This document shows, one piece after another, positions 7,554 through 12,795 of a stretch of DNA of 22,800 nt (position 1 is the first letter of the stretch; the number at the start of each line of letters is the position of its first letter). The stretch is from positions 1 through 22,800 of the IMG/VR virus record IMGVR_UViG_3300014913_001037, one strand, 5' to 3'. Source of the stretch: a virus. Position numbers and translations under genes: made by a program. Below the pieces are notes generated by a model, which was not told where the DNA came from, ran no database searches, and was given only the letters and a program-made list of their open reading frames with translations.

Positions 7554-7847
7554 ATGAAAATCCTAGCGACTAAAGATATGATACAAAAATTCAAAGGGAA
7601 TTTAGAAATTCCAGAGATAAGAGTATGGTGCCATCCGCATTATGTGAAGAAAAGAGGAGACGATTACTACAAAGTATTTGATACTTTCGCTGAAGCGGTA
7701 GAATTTACGAACTCTCATGAAGAAGCTGAAGAAGTCCCCCTAATCGCATTTAGGGGCTACGAGTTGAATCTGTGGACAATAGTGCCTGAGCAAGAAGGAG
7801 AAAGGAAATTAGATGAAGATAATCGGAAACAGAATCAGAAGAGCTAA
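7554..7847 (+). CDS. Hypothetical protein, 97 aa
   Basis: Not recognised. A small soluble protein with a mixed alpha/beta look (EIRVWCHPHYVKKRGDDYYKVF, then an acidic helix) and a highly polar C-terminal tail. GGGAGG precedes the ATG by 8 bases. Its end overlaps the next gene by 35 bases, so the tail is constrained by the overlapping frame. Confidence 0.62.
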   Translation: MKILATKDMIQKFKGNLEIPEIRVWCHPHYVKKRGDDYYKVFDTFAEAVEFTNSHEEAEEVPLIAFRGYELNLWTIVPEQEGERKLDEDNRKQNQKS

Positions 7848-8040
7848 ACAAATCCTGGGGAAAACGGAAACTTCCGTAACACTTGAGGCTAGAGAGGATA
7901 TCAAACTAAAAGGGCAGATCGCTATTTCGATTATTCTCGTAGGCGTTGCTGTTTATCTCATCGGATTTACTGGTGATGAAAACTTAGCCAGAGTAGCAAT
8001 CGGGTGGATCGGAATCATAATAGGATACTGGGTGGGATGA
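7813..8040 (+). CDS. Small two-helix membrane protein
   Basis: A 75-residue protein with a basic N-terminus (IGNRIRRAKQILGK) and two hydrophobic helices, at about residues 35-52 (IAISIILVGVAVYLIGF) and 60-75 (RVAIGWIGIIIGYWVG), separated by a short acidic turn. AAAGGA lies 7-9 bases before the ATG and the gene overlaps its upstream neighbour by 35 bases. A holin-like role is possible from size and topology, but the location far from the tail/lysis end argues against it. Function unknown. Confidence 0.6.
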   Translation: MKIIGNRIRRAKQILGKTETSVTLEAREDIKLKGQIAISIILVGVAVYLIGFTGDENLARVAIGWIGIIIGYWVG

Positions 8041-8046
8041 TATAAT

Positions 8047-9903
8047 ATGAGTATGCCGAGCGCAGAATGCAAATACCCATTGTACTGGCATAACTGCTAT
8101 TCCGGGAATTACGATATATGGTCACCCGAAAGCTATATTCACCCAGCTAAGATGTCACCAGCTCTGTGCTACAGGATATTAGACCATCTAAGAGAGCTTG
8201 GGCTTTTAGATGAAGACAGCATAATACTTGATCCGATGGCAGGGATCGGAACTACTGGTGTATGTGCTTCAGCGAAAGGTTATAAATTCATTGCCATAGA
8301 GCTTGAACCAAAATTTGTGAACTTAATGAAGGAGACCAAGGAATATGCTGAGAAAAAGCTTTTCAAGAAATTCGATTGGGAAATAATTCAAGGCGATGCC
8401 CGAGATCTTGTTCAGCTGTTGCTGGATAAGGAACTAATAACTCTCCAAAGTCCTTCTTCCGTAGACAATCGTACCAACGGGAATGCTAGAAATTTCAAAG
8501 CGATTACTAGTCCTCCTTACAGCGAAATGAAACAGGGATTAGCAACTCGAGAGTCGGCCGAAAGATTAGCAGCTGAAATGGAAAAGAGAAATCCCAAATA
8601 TGGGAAGCGAACAACACCAGGCAGGTTAAGACATCTACAAAAGGAACAATCGGGATATTCCACAGACCCCACAAACATTGGGAATCTACCGGACAAATCT
8701 ATGGTCACTGTTACCAGTCCTCCTTATGGAGAAATTGGCATAGGCAACTATAAAGGAACGAGAGATGAATTTGTAGCATGGATTAAGAACGAATTGGCAA
8801 CAAAAGGTTACATTGAGTTTCGGGGAAAGCGGTATACGGAGCAGGAATGGAGAAGCCTAAACTACGGACGATTAGACGGGCGTGTTATGGTAGGGAGTCC
8901 CAAAATGGGGACAGAAGGTTATAATCCTGAGAACCCCAAAAACATAGGCAACCTACCCGATAACAAAGGTGTAGTCACCATCACAAGTCCTCCGTATGGA
9001 ATTGAGCAAACTTCCGGCGGCTTGAATACAAAGCCTGCCCGAACTGAAAACGATCAAAGCGGAAGAAATCCCGATTCTCCATCTCAAAGAGGCGCCAAAG
9101 AAGGCTATGGACGAACGGAGGGACAAATCGGCAAGATGAAAGATAAACCGCTGATAGCAATAACAAGCCCTCCATATGGGGAAGCATTGAGTGGTGGAGG
9201 CATTGCAAAGTACGGACATTATTCTGATCCTAATCTGGTAAATCGAATATATTCCTCTGAGAACGCAAATCCGGATGACAAAGTAAAGATCAAGAAAGAG
9301 GAACGAGCTAAAATAAATCGCCCTGGTGTTTTCACAAATGAGCGTAACATATCAGCAAAAGGTTGCTTCAAAGGAGATTATTCCAAGAATCCTGAAAACA
9401 TTGGGAACTTGTCCGATAAACCGCTAGCAACTATCACTTCTCCTCCGTACGGTGCTGCCTATAAAGCAAAAGGCTCGCCCGGTGGTATACTCGATAAAAA
9501 CAGAAAAGACTTACAAAAGTCCGTATATACTCAAGGAATGCAAGGGCAATCGGAAGGGCAGATAGCGAAAGAGGAGGGAGAAACTTATTTATCCGCTATG
9601 GCAAAAGTTTATGCTGAATTGGCTATTGTCTCAGATATTCTGGCAATCGTTATAAAGAATCCTACTAGGAATGGCAAGTTAAGAAGACTTGATCTCGATA
9701 CTTTGAAAATCCTTGAAATAACCGGATGGAAGTTGCATTGTAAGCACAGGGCATTATTATTTGAAGAGTATGAGCAGACGAGTTTATTTGGGGAAAAACA
9801 GAAGAAGGTTAAAGGTCGATTGAGTTTCTTCAAAAGGCTAGCTTGGAGAAATGGTGCTCCGGTAGCTAGATGGGAAGACGTGTTAATTTGTGTAAGGAAG
9901 TAG
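8047..9903 (+). CDS. DNA methyltransferase (N4-cytosine/N6-adenine type) with five SPPY motifs
   Basis: SAM-dependent amino-methyltransferase. The SAM-binding motif I DPMAGIGTTG (residues 62-71), motif II AIELEP (83-88) and motif III-like GDARD (116-120) precede motif IV, so the order is gamma-like (I then IV). Motif IV TSPPY occurs five times, with SPPY at residues 155, 224, 314, 374 and 464. The C-terminal half continues with the post-motif-IV helix (TYLSAMAKVYAELA), VIKNPTRNGK, LDLDTLKILEITGW and GRLSFFKRLAWRNGAP, typical of phage and bacterial SPPY enzymes, which normally carry one SPPY and are much shorter than 618 residues. Inter-motif segments are Gly/Asn/Pro/charged-rich and look like variable recognition loops. 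Residues 577-581 (QTSLF) fit the QxxLF clamp-binding peptide. No restriction enzyme gene lies beside it, so self-protection or anti-restriction is likely. Confidence 0.88.
   Translation: MSMPSAECKYPLYWHNCYSGNYDIWSPESYIHPAKMSPALCYRILDHLRELGLLDEDSIILDPMAGIGTTGVCASAKGYKFIAIELEPKFVNLMKETKEYAEKKLFKKFDWEIIQGDARDLVQLLLDKELITLQSPSSVDNRTNGNARNFKAITSPPYSEMKQGLATRESAERLAAEMEKRNPKYGKRTTPGRLRHLQKEQSGYSTDPTNIGNLPDKSMVTVTSPPYGEIGIGNYKGTRDEFVAWIKNELATKGYIEFRGKRYTEQEWRSLNYGRLDGRVMVGSPKMGTEGYNPENPKNIGNLPDNKGVVTITSPPYGIEQTSGGLNTKPARTENDQSGRNPDSPSQRGAKEGYGRTEGQIGKMKDKPLIAITSPPYGEALSGGGIAKYGHYSDPNLVNRIYSSENANPDDKVKIKKEERAKINRPGVFTNERNISAKGCFKGDYSKNPENIGNLSDKPLATITSPPYGAAYKAKGSPGGILDKNRKDLQKSVYTQGMQGQSEGQIAKEEGETYLSAMAKVYAELAIVSDILAIVIKNPTRNGKLRRLDLDTLKILEITGWKLHCKHRALLFEEYEQTSLFGEKQKKVKGRLSFFKRLAWRNGAPVARWEDVLICVRK
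8494..9582 (+). repeat. Tandem motif-IV segments inside the methyltransferase
   Basis: Five protein-level repeats. A junction resembling NIGNLPDK precedes TSPPYGE, followed by a variable 40-70 residue segment. SPPY-to-SPPY distances are 69, 90, 60 and 90 residues. The NIGNLPDK junctions appear before copies 2, 3 and 5, and GQIGKMKDK before copy 4; a related GQIAKEEGETY leads into the conserved C-terminal half. Codons of the copies differ at many synonymous positions (for example Pro-Pro as CCTCCT or CCTCCG, Ser as AGT, AGC or TCT), so the duplications are old and not an assembly artefact. Confidence 0.85.
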
Positions 9904-10122
9904 ATGCTAATGACATTTAATATAGGTTTCGATCCAAATCAACAATTAATCAGCATTGAATTTGAGAATATACGTTACTATTTTGATGTACCGTCGTTCT
10001 TTGAATTCCTGAAGGCTTGTCTATTCGTTGCCGATAATGCGCTTAATGGACAAGATGCACCATTAATCTTAAAAAAAGCAGCTGAATTAGTTGAGAATTA
10101 TGAGAAAAAACAGGAGGAATAA
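9904..10122 (+). CDS. Hypothetical protein, 72 aa
   Basis: Starts directly after the methyltransferase stop codon (TAG-ATG) with AAGGAAG just upstream; an in-frame ATG at 9910 has better spacing. Predicted mixed fold: beta-like ISIEFENIRYYFDV followed by helices and an acidic/Lys tail. Not recognised. Likely co-translated with the methyltransferase. The tail contains GAG AAA AAA CAG, a six-A run, and the -1 frame is open beyond it (see the finding at 10104-10295). Confidence 0.6.
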   Translation: MLMTFNIGFDPNQQLISIEFENIRYYFDVPSFFEFLKACLFVADNALNGQDAPLILKKAAELVENYEKKQEE

Positions 10123-10762: not shown

Positions 10763-11779
10763 TTATGGCCCACAAAAGGCAACATAGCGATACGAAATAC
10801 CATCCAGATTAGCTACATCATCAATTACAAAGCCATCACTCGAGTGAAGTTTTACGATTTCACTCCAATTGTGAGGATACATATAAATAAAAGTAGGAAC
10901 AGAATAAATATAAATAGTTTCAGACGCTTTGTGTACAAGGGAGCCAAGAGGTGAGAGACACGAAAGCATCCATATAAGAGGTTCAATTCTCATGTATTGG
11001 ACCAAATAAGCTTTGTATCCAAGACTAATATGACGATTCGAAGTACCATCGCCAGTGATATCACCGACAAATGACCAAGCAATCCCCTGGGAAGTCTTCT
11101 CTGGGATAACAGCTCCAGCTTTAATACTGTCGGTGTCAATAGTCGATGCTATAATCTTCTCGCCGTGCAGATTAGCTATCTTGGCGTTTGTGACAGACAG
11201 ATTCTCAATAAGCTCTGTAGAAACCTGTCCAAGCGGCCATAATCGGATAGTATCTATTGAGAGATCCGCTATGCCGGAGGTGAATGTTACATAAACATTA
11301 AGCCCGGTGTCATTATTCCTTAACTCAGCTACCATCGAGAAGGATTGCCATACACCTGGCGAAGTAAAATCAATTGGCTTAATATCACGGCTTGAAACGC
11401 TCGTGGAGCCTCCTCCACGAGTAACCTTGACACTTATAGTCCCAATCGTGCTCTCGCTAGTATTGCTACTAATCTTGAGTCTGAAAGTAACCCAATAGAT
11501 ATTAGCTGAAATATTGTTTTGTGTAGGACCAGAAAGCATTTCTCCAGAACTGTCAGTTGACAACGCTTTGCGACAAGTTCCATTGAAGGCTGTAGGATCA
11601 TCAACATTAGAACCCACTGCCCCCGGAATATCCACGGCCTTGATAAAATAACCAAGAAAATCAGCACCTATGACTGATTGGAGTCCTTCATCAAGATCAT
11701 CAAAGGAGACTTCGGCTCCACCAGGTTTTTCCCAAGTTTCCTCTTCAGCTGCAGGAGTTATGCCGCACCATGTAGTCAT
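10763..11779 (-). CDS. Tail fibre-like protein
   Basis: A 338-residue protein with modular, beta-rich composition. The N-terminal region is a variable beta domain (about residues 40-185). Residues about 188-222 form an Asn/Ala/Ile repeat typical of trimeric fibre shafts (ENLSVTNAKIANLHGEKI, STIDTDSIKAGAV). The C-terminal region ends IVKLHSSDGFVIDD...SYRYVAFCGP, matching the SDGF...YxYVAF ending of many phage tail fibre/appendage proteins. Its start overlaps the protease stop by 4 bases (ATGA) and AGGAGA precedes the ATG. Likely part of the host-recognition apparatus. Which end binds the host is not visible from sequence. Confidence 0.72.
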   Translation of the reverse strand: MTTWCGITPAAEEETWEKPGGAEVSFDDLDEGLQSVIGADFLGYFIKAVDIPGAVGSNVDDPTAFNGTCRKALSTDSSGEMLSGPTQNNISANIYWVTFRLKISSNTSESTIGTISVKVTRGGGSTSVSSRDIKPIDFTSPGVWQSFSMVAELRNNDTGLNVYVTFTSGIADLSIDTIRLWPLGQVSTELIENLSVTNAKIANLHGEKIIASTIDTDSIKAGAVIPEKTSQGIAWSFVGDITGDGTSNRHISLGYKAYLVQYMRIEPLIWMLSCLSPLGSLVHKASETIYIYSVPTFIYMYPHNWSEIVKLHSSDGFVIDDVANLDGISYRYVAFCGP

Positions 11780-12795
11780 TTTAGTTTTCTCCTGAATAAG
11801 TTATGAATAAAAGCGAAACCTGCACAGAGGCAACCCTGTTTCTCTTTGAATCTGGCACCAATTCGATAGCTTGCTAGTGGAAGACTAGGAGGTAGCGAGA
11901 AATCGAGTTTGAACCTATCCGCAACCAGTTTTATTCTGTTAGCTATTAGGAAGTCACCGTTGTACGCACCAGCAAAACATAAACCAACAAGTTGATTGCT
12001 CTCATTAACCATCGCAGATCCAGAATCACCACCTTGAATTGCCCGGGATTCTCCAGGTGCCTTGTCTGCAATAATTTGATCGACTAAAGTCACCACTCTA
12101 CCATGCCCATAACTCACTTTAACAATAGCATGGACTACAGTAACTATCACATTTGTAACTCCGGTTGTCCTTCCCGATTTACGACAACGCTGACCTAAGT
12201 ATGCTTCAACTAAACCTGGTTGCAAGGCACCTATCTCAAGAAGTTCAAATTTAGCATCTTTTTCGTTTTGAAACCTGAAAATGGCCGCATCCATATTGGG
12301 GATGCCATTAGAAATAGGCTCAAAATCAATTAGCGTTCCTATTTCATCTTCTGAAGTCCCTCCGTCAACTACCCCGGGCTGGTAGATCGGATCTCCTATC
12401 TTCGCCTCATCATTATTTGCTATGACATGATTGTTGGAAAGTCCTACAATAATACCTTCTTGTAGACATGGAATCGTTAAGGTGCCAGCTGTTACATTAG
12501 GATGCCCTACCGATACTCCCCCCGGAGCTGGCCTCCATCTGGCTTTTCTATCAACCATTGCAACAGCTTGTCTCACCTGAACATCGGTGGAGACTCCTTC
12601 GATTTCACTCGGGATAACATCCCTTTCCTCTAGTGCGGCTACTGAGACTTTTTCCTTAACAAAAACCACAAAGCAAACTTCGTTCGTGAGTTTACCCTTT
12701 CTCCATCTTAAACCAATGCCGGTGCCCACTACATTCTTCTTGGCTTCTATCTCCTTCCCATATTTCTTTTGAAGTTCAACTAAATCCTTTTCCAT
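11776..12795 (-). CDS. Trypsin-like serine protease (S1 fold) within the tail module
   Basis: The catalytic triad is visible: His123 in LSNNHVIA, Asp169 in NMDAAIF and Ser258 in GGDSGSAMV. The N-terminal segment (KNVVGTGIGLRW ... VVFVKEKVSVAAL ... VIPSEIEGVSTDV, residues 20-73) is the propeptide-like beta domain found in front of bacterial S1-type (Nal1-like) peptidases. No signal peptide is seen, so if it acts outside the cell it is probably delivered as a virion component. AGAGGTAG lies before the ATG, and the gene is coupled by a 4-base overlap to the fibre gene and spaced 12 bases from the upstream structural gene. Candidate roles are cleaving host surface protein (S-layer, pili) during adsorption, or maturing tail fibres. 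Residues 300-339 form a basic, partly hydrophobic tail with no family match. Confidence 0.85.
   Translation of the reverse strand: MEKDLVELQKKYGKEIEAKKNVVGTGIGLRWRKGKLTNEVCFVVFVKEKVSVAALEERDVIPSEIEGVSTDVQVRQAVAMVDRKARWRPAPGGVSVGHPNVTAGTLTIPCLQEGIIVGLSNNHVIANNDEAKIGDPIYQPGVVDGGTSEDEIGTLIDFEPISNGIPNMDAAIFRFQNEKDAKFELLEIGALQPGLVEAYLGQRCRKSGRTTGVTNVIVTVVHAIVKVSYGHGRVVTLVDQIIADKAPGESRAIQGGDSGSAMVNESNQLVGLCFAGAYNGDFLIANRIKLVADRFKLDFSLPPSLPLASYRIGARFKEKQGCLCAGFAFIHNLFRRKLK

Follow-up and report, generated by a model that had tools for sequence, protein, structure and literature searches.

A phage amino-methyltransferase gene with five SPPY cassettes and in-register exchange of loops among its homologues

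In the phage methyltransferase analyzed here, the catalytic motif IV, SPPY, occurs five times within one polypeptide, and each copy leads into a loop of its own. The homologues carry variable numbers of such cassettes, exchange the loops in register between conserved junctions, and conserve the loop types that they share. The explanation that we consider probable, judged from sequences, is that of a split-core amino-methyltransferase whose tandem units would dock into the core by turns and thereby address several targets, with loops that are reshuffled by recombination and with a benefit that would lie in counteracting restriction.

The window gene and its relatives

The window, which is the whole stretch of DNA that was analyzed, comes from IMG/VR, where it is a virus record of 22.8 kb. 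Its left part carries replication genes (sliding clamp, DnaA/IstB-type loader, replisome organizer), and its right part carries genes for tail proteins (tape measure, minor tail protein); the methyltransferase gene is therefore phage-borne. The small genes that adjoin it (7554-7847, 7813-8040, and 9904-10122), among which a restriction endonuclease gene was sought, have no family match. The window also encodes an ERCC4-type nuclease with a helix-hairpin-helix domain (11-718), a trypsin-like/NAL1-type protease that adjoins the tail genes (11776-12795), and a DUF5131 protein (PF07505; 4303-5250), whose gene precedes that of the methyltransferase by a few kb; the Desulfocapsaceae contig described below encodes a 32% identical homologue in a comparable location (L023:2548-3372).

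The methyltransferase gene spans positions 8047-9903 of the plus strand as one stop-free open frame of 618 codons. Its 618-residue product contains SPPY at residues 155, 224, 314, 374, and 465, which bears out the five copies seen in the initial annotation, where only the last one had been placed one residue too low, at 464. In 20,000 shuffles of the protein, SPPY occurred 0.007 times on average and at most once. The NIGNLPDK-like junctions that had been noticed as well are indeed present, as an IG-x3-D-like junction precedes each of the SPPY copies 2-5 (NIGNLPDK, NIGNLPDN, QIGKMKDK, and NIGNLSDK), and a DNA pattern that joins this junction to TSPPY has three matches in the window versus none expected. 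The rest of the protein is single, in agreement with what had been stated for motifs I-III and the C-terminal half: the N-terminal core (8047-8508) holds the SAM-binding half with HPAKM (residues 32-36; 8140-8154), motif I DPMAGIGT (residues 62-69; 8230-8253), motif II ELEP, and GDAR (residues 116-119; 8392-8403), and the C-terminal core (residues 513-618; 9583-9900) holds YLSAMAKVY, KNPTRNGKLRRLDLDT, FFKRL, and WEDV. Between them, on the same strand, lie five cassettes, each consisting of an SPPY and its loop. Cassette 1 (8509-8715; SPPY at residues 155-158) ends with the junction NIGNLPDK; cassette 2 (8716-8985) is of the type GIGNY..NELATKGYIE..RYTEQEWR, which is also that of cassette 2 of the homologue L050; cassette 3 (8986-9165) ends with GYGRTEGQIGKMKDK; cassette 4 (9166-9438) is of the SGGGIAKYGHY type, to which cassette 2 of L079 also belongs; and cassette 5 (9439-9582) runs into the C-terminal core with a degenerate IGNL-like end, GQIAKEEGE.

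The N-terminal half of the window protein matches PF01555 (E 8.4e-12), with a score of 46 bits that exceeds the curated gathering score of 26.7, and PF01170 (E 2.3e-5). All 24 of the 24 family members match PF01555 at E <= 0.01, and among the Pfam matches of the window protein and its homologues there is no C5-methyltransferase family, but PF01555 and PF01170 instead. Motif I and the catalytic (D/N/S)PP(Y/F/W) of amino-methyltransferases are both present, as DPMAGIGT and TSPPY. The use of SPPY in cytosine-N4 (m4C) methylation is established, and the motif suggests this chemistry for the window enzyme.

The nearest ordinary family is PDLC03353, and because 24 of the 25 cellular proteins in which it was read have exactly one motif IV (the remaining one has two), five copies are far outside the norm, as had been assumed from the start. 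These ordinary beta-class amino-methyltransferases (PADLOC MTase_II PDLC03353, PF01555) resemble the window family in motif I, SPPY, and the C-terminal half. They differ in that their motif IV is single and precedes motif I, as in 25 of the 25 cellular relatives, whereas the window family has motif I ahead of a repeated motif IV; in the window protein, motif I begins at residue 62 and the first SPPY at 155, which departs from the beta-class order. Furthermore, from SPPY to the next helix the loops read in ordinary relatives comprise roughly 15 residues, compared with 22-78 in the window family. The half of PDLC03353 that starts with motif IV aligns to the homologue L073 over residues 266-438, which are the last cassette and the C-terminal core of that protein. 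In the ordinary relative L142, the stretch behind SPPY ends with GQIGYGQSLHEYL, located after the SPPY loop and ahead of the following helix and thus the counterpart of the array-ending GQIGNL-x-SYLxAM, and this turn suggests that a cassette is a natural piece of the fold, which extends from beta-4 up to the point where that helix begins.

With pattern scans we identified 23 additional distinct homologues, of which 22 are on uncultivated phage contigs and one is on a contig of a Desulfocapsaceae MAG; with duplicates removed and the window protein included, the family set comprises 24 distinct proteins. The MAG homologue (L023, three SPPY) was found with the junction DNA pattern, and the phage homologues with the C-terminal pattern K-N-x2-R-N-x-K-x3-L-x2-D-T and the pattern HPAKM-x20-DPM-x-G. 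Peptide patterns of the window protein itself revealed no close relatives in IMG/VR, and scans of named phages and plasmids returned ordinary methylases or no match. Two candidates, L002 and L003, turned out to be ordinary methyltransferases. Besides the Desulfocapsaceae MAG, no cellular member was found in the 297 genomes scanned from its phylum, and none in 400 genomes from the phylum to which L031 belongs (labelled Chloroflexi), in a scan that was run without a positive control; because these phylum scans brought up no other cellular member, the family appears to belong to phages. In the core tree, the window protein, L023, and L055 are separated from the rest with full support, with most deeper forks unresolved.

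The order of the core is the same in homologues with one to four cassettes. One cassette is found in L059 and L072, the former with the layout core-SPPY-loop-core, others have two, three, or four, and the window protein has the maximum of five. The initial annotation had reserved a spacer interpretation for the case that homologues show the same five copies; the homologues have one to four, and these are of different types. Several homologues recur unchanged in more than one contig, some of them in different metagenomes (L045/L049, L064/L074, L058/L075, L059/L077, and L068/L081). One three-cassette gene is intact in one of two contigs and broken into two frames ahead of the array in the other (L060:7704-9062 and L071:2424-3810). 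The gene L062:12769-14670 has an in-frame extra segment of about 190 residues behind its fourth cassette. In a related methyltransferase (L067:1-282), motif I continues into CYDEETEVLTRKGWK, which by eye has the look of an intein start at the SAM-binding motif.

Exchange and conservation of the loops

We compared 70 cassettes, collected with a loose motif definition, all against all, and used the highest of 2,415 shuffled comparisons as cut-off. Their variable part comprises 22-78 residues, save for one cassette with a long insert. Above the shuffle maximum there were 37 cassette pairs, each of which joined two different proteins. Of the 79 pairs within one protein, none passed, which is not a significant depletion relative to a random draw (about 1.3 expected) and rules out recent internal duplication only. 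The cassettes of one protein are unlike each other outside the SPPY/junction frame, and they resemble cassettes of other phages. The identity between cassette 4 of the window protein and cassette 2 of L079 amounts to 55%, with cores that share 36% (N-terminal) and 30% (C-terminal); between its cassette 2 and the second cassette of L050 it amounts to 53%, and the N- and C-terminal cores share 29% and 38%, respectively. A loop would be expected to evolve faster than the other parts, yet here it is more conserved than the catalytic body, and this is a mark of exchange. The ordinal position of a type also varies, as the FWERLA-DPTSARYGR type is third in L060 and L076, second in L061 and L078, and first in L079. 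Ordinary cellular relatives did not emerge as a source of the loops, as their best score of 42 was below the shuffle maximum of 52 among cassettes.

Closely related pairs indicate which part is exchanged. The cores of L073 and L076 are 89% identical (84% at the DNA level), and of their four cassettes each, none is shared; likewise, L079 and L082 have 93% identical cores and no cassette in common. The latter two (L079:530-1618 and L082:1-819) are neighboring methyltransferase genes on one phage contig, IMGVR_UViG_3300031539_008099. The junction DNA before the third and fourth SPPY of L073 and L076 is 91% and 95% identical at the same position, versus 33-64% at other positions, and at the second position it is 95% identical between L079 and L082 and 91% between L080 and L065. 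As junctions are alike at the same ordinal position, the frame has been inherited in place and the loops from SPPY to IGNL have been replaced. By these comparisons, the core, SPPY, and the junctions form the frame that is inherited in register, and what is exchanged is the loop that separates SPPY from the IGNL junction. This argues against repeated internal duplication and for recombination at conserved junctions, and together with the all-against-all comparison it led us to reject the duplication origin that the initial annotation had proposed. Its broader idea of one core with exchangeable segments, similar to the C5 enzymes, was sustained with respect to exchange, which occurs between phages, and to conservation, but not with respect to the origin by duplication.

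SPPY is exact in 66 of the 70 copies, with three SPPF and one SPPH. Shared cassettes, including pairs in which both are inner ones, show a pS near or above 0.6-1 and a pN of 0.05-0.47; since the pairs were picked by protein similarity, pN is biased downward, and the figures describe conservation of the shared types, not constraint on all cassettes. Read in this way, the shared loops are conserved at saturated or near-saturated synonymous distance. Not every unit is complete on its own, because 15 of the 44 inner cassettes are without an IGNL end.

The homologue L055 (L055:841-2229) has one in-place SPPY in the core, and two SPPY...GQIGNL units are fused in frame behind its conserved C-terminus. 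One of these tail units (L055_3) is of a type that occurs inside the array of L062, and a cassette type can thus be first, inner, last, or even behind the core. Apart from this tail, no orphan cassettes outside methyltransferase genes were seen in the loci examined.

Proposed docking by turns and its alternatives

In the split-core enzyme that we favor, the Rossmann core would be divided into an N-terminal part with the SAM site and a C-terminal part with the second half of the sheet. The tandem units between the two would each provide a beta-4 strand, SPPY, and a recognition loop of 22-78 residues that is closed by the IGNL-like turn. One unit would be docked into the core at a time, with the others looped out, and with one target per cassette, a single polypeptide, such as the window enzyme, could methylate several different sequences. 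Phages would recombine at the conserved junctions, SPPY and IGNL, to reshuffle the loops, and the set of protected sites would change with the core left untouched. The benefit may be the evasion of several host restriction systems, and one enzyme probably protects the phage DNA against several of them. We also regard as plausible, if not quite probable, a plug-in catalytic strand, by which the core would be completed in turn by beta-4/SPPY/loop cassettes that are traded one by one from a pool, with some of them stored behind the core as in L055. The two tail cassettes of L055 count against docking, as they are in a position from which it is harder to picture; this tail could be an archive, or its cassettes could dock from there.

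AlphaFold predicted a confident core both for L059 (mean pLDDT 75, pTM 0.70) and for the window protein (overall mean pLDDT 57, pTM 0.48). In the AF2 model of the latter, residues 40-130 of the N-terminal core reach a pLDDT of about 90 or more, and the C-terminal core reaches 76-93 per 10-residue block. Residues 150-154, directly before the first SPPY, form a strand with a pLDDT of ~50, and most of cassettes 2-5 are below 50. In neither protein was a cassette folded confidently, nor could the SPPY at beta-4 be identified, and these models neither support nor exclude the docking of each cassette. In Foldseek searches, the L059 model matched Rossmann methyltransferases, with Trm11 first (6zxy, E 2.7e-6) and TM-scores of about 0.4-0.5.

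The main rival, which we judge rather unlikely, is that only one cassette is active, probably the first or the one adjacent to the C-terminal core, and that the others, although translated, form a silent store; by recombination, their loops would reach the active place, and the specificity would switch over generations. Loops swapped in register at conserved junctions, the same cassette type in first, inner, last, and tail positions, and inner units without an IGNL end would all suit such a store, as would the AF2 model, in which the first SPPY alone is placed in a strand, at low confidence. However, the inner cassettes retain SPPY and the frame in every family member read, translation brings a silent store no gain, and for the conservation of cassettes shared between inner positions to fit a store, turnover would have to be fast. 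Docking by turns and a silent store differ in the number of motifs that one clonal enzyme methylates.

It is improbable that catalysis depends on a single SPPY and that the remaining units act as loops for DNA binding or spacing, by which one site would be recognized more broadly or over a greater length. One SAM pocket per polypeptide would agree with this, but non-catalytic loops need not keep SPPY, and the retention in 66 of 70 copies (loose motif definition) disfavors in particular the reading of the extra copies as spacers; moreover, single-cassette members exist, and whole loop sets change while cores stay. We give very little weight to an oligomer in which several polypeptides come together through the array and the core of each one is served by a cassette of its neighbor; the L055 tail suggests that the position relative to the core is free, but the other members do not need such an arrangement. 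An assembly artefact or a decaying gene, which a single metagenomic contig and the broken copy of one homologue might bring to mind, is hardly credible in view of the open 618-codon frame, the homologues that recur unchanged across contigs, and the conservation at the protein level.

Known systems and implications

SPR, phi3T, and rho11 are Bacillus phages with multispecific C5-methyltransferases. That such enzymes of Bacillus temperate phages are established is stated in a passage of PMC12707154, which cites Trautner et al. (1996, EMBO J 15:1434). The window enzyme resembles them in being phage-encoded, in its single catalytic core with tandem recognition modules in one polypeptide, and in the probable protection against many restriction systems. 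The C5 enzymes, however, have a single catalytic motif and recognition modules within one variable region, whereas the window enzyme is an amino-methyltransferase (PF01555) with its own copy of the catalytic motif IV in each module. Type I HsdS proteins share with the window family the recombinational swapping of recognition modules between conserved joining segments, but they are a separate subunit that lacks catalytic motifs and has two half-site modules, as opposed to up to five units inside the catalytic chain. The tRNA m2G methyltransferases Trm11/Trm14, which are the best structural matches of the L059 model, with TM-scores of no more than 0.44-0.50, also have motif I before motif IV; the repeated loops have no counterpart there, and unlike Trm11/Trm14, the window family has no Pfam match to a THUMP domain.

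In open-access papers, we found no description of an amino-methyltransferase with motif IV inside a repeated module. By the sequence evidence, the new aspect is that the catalytic motif travels with the recognition module, and that it does so in the amino-methyltransferase superfamily, as the known multispecific phage enzymes are C5-methyltransferases with one catalytic motif. The pool of interchangeable cassettes is spread over unrelated phages. If the multispecificity holds true, the cassettes would be a natural set of short specificity parts of 22-78 residues, whose code could be deciphered from methylomes set against the cassettes that each enzyme carries, and they would open a direct way to study the sequence choice of amino-methyltransferases and the means by which phages keep up with restriction.
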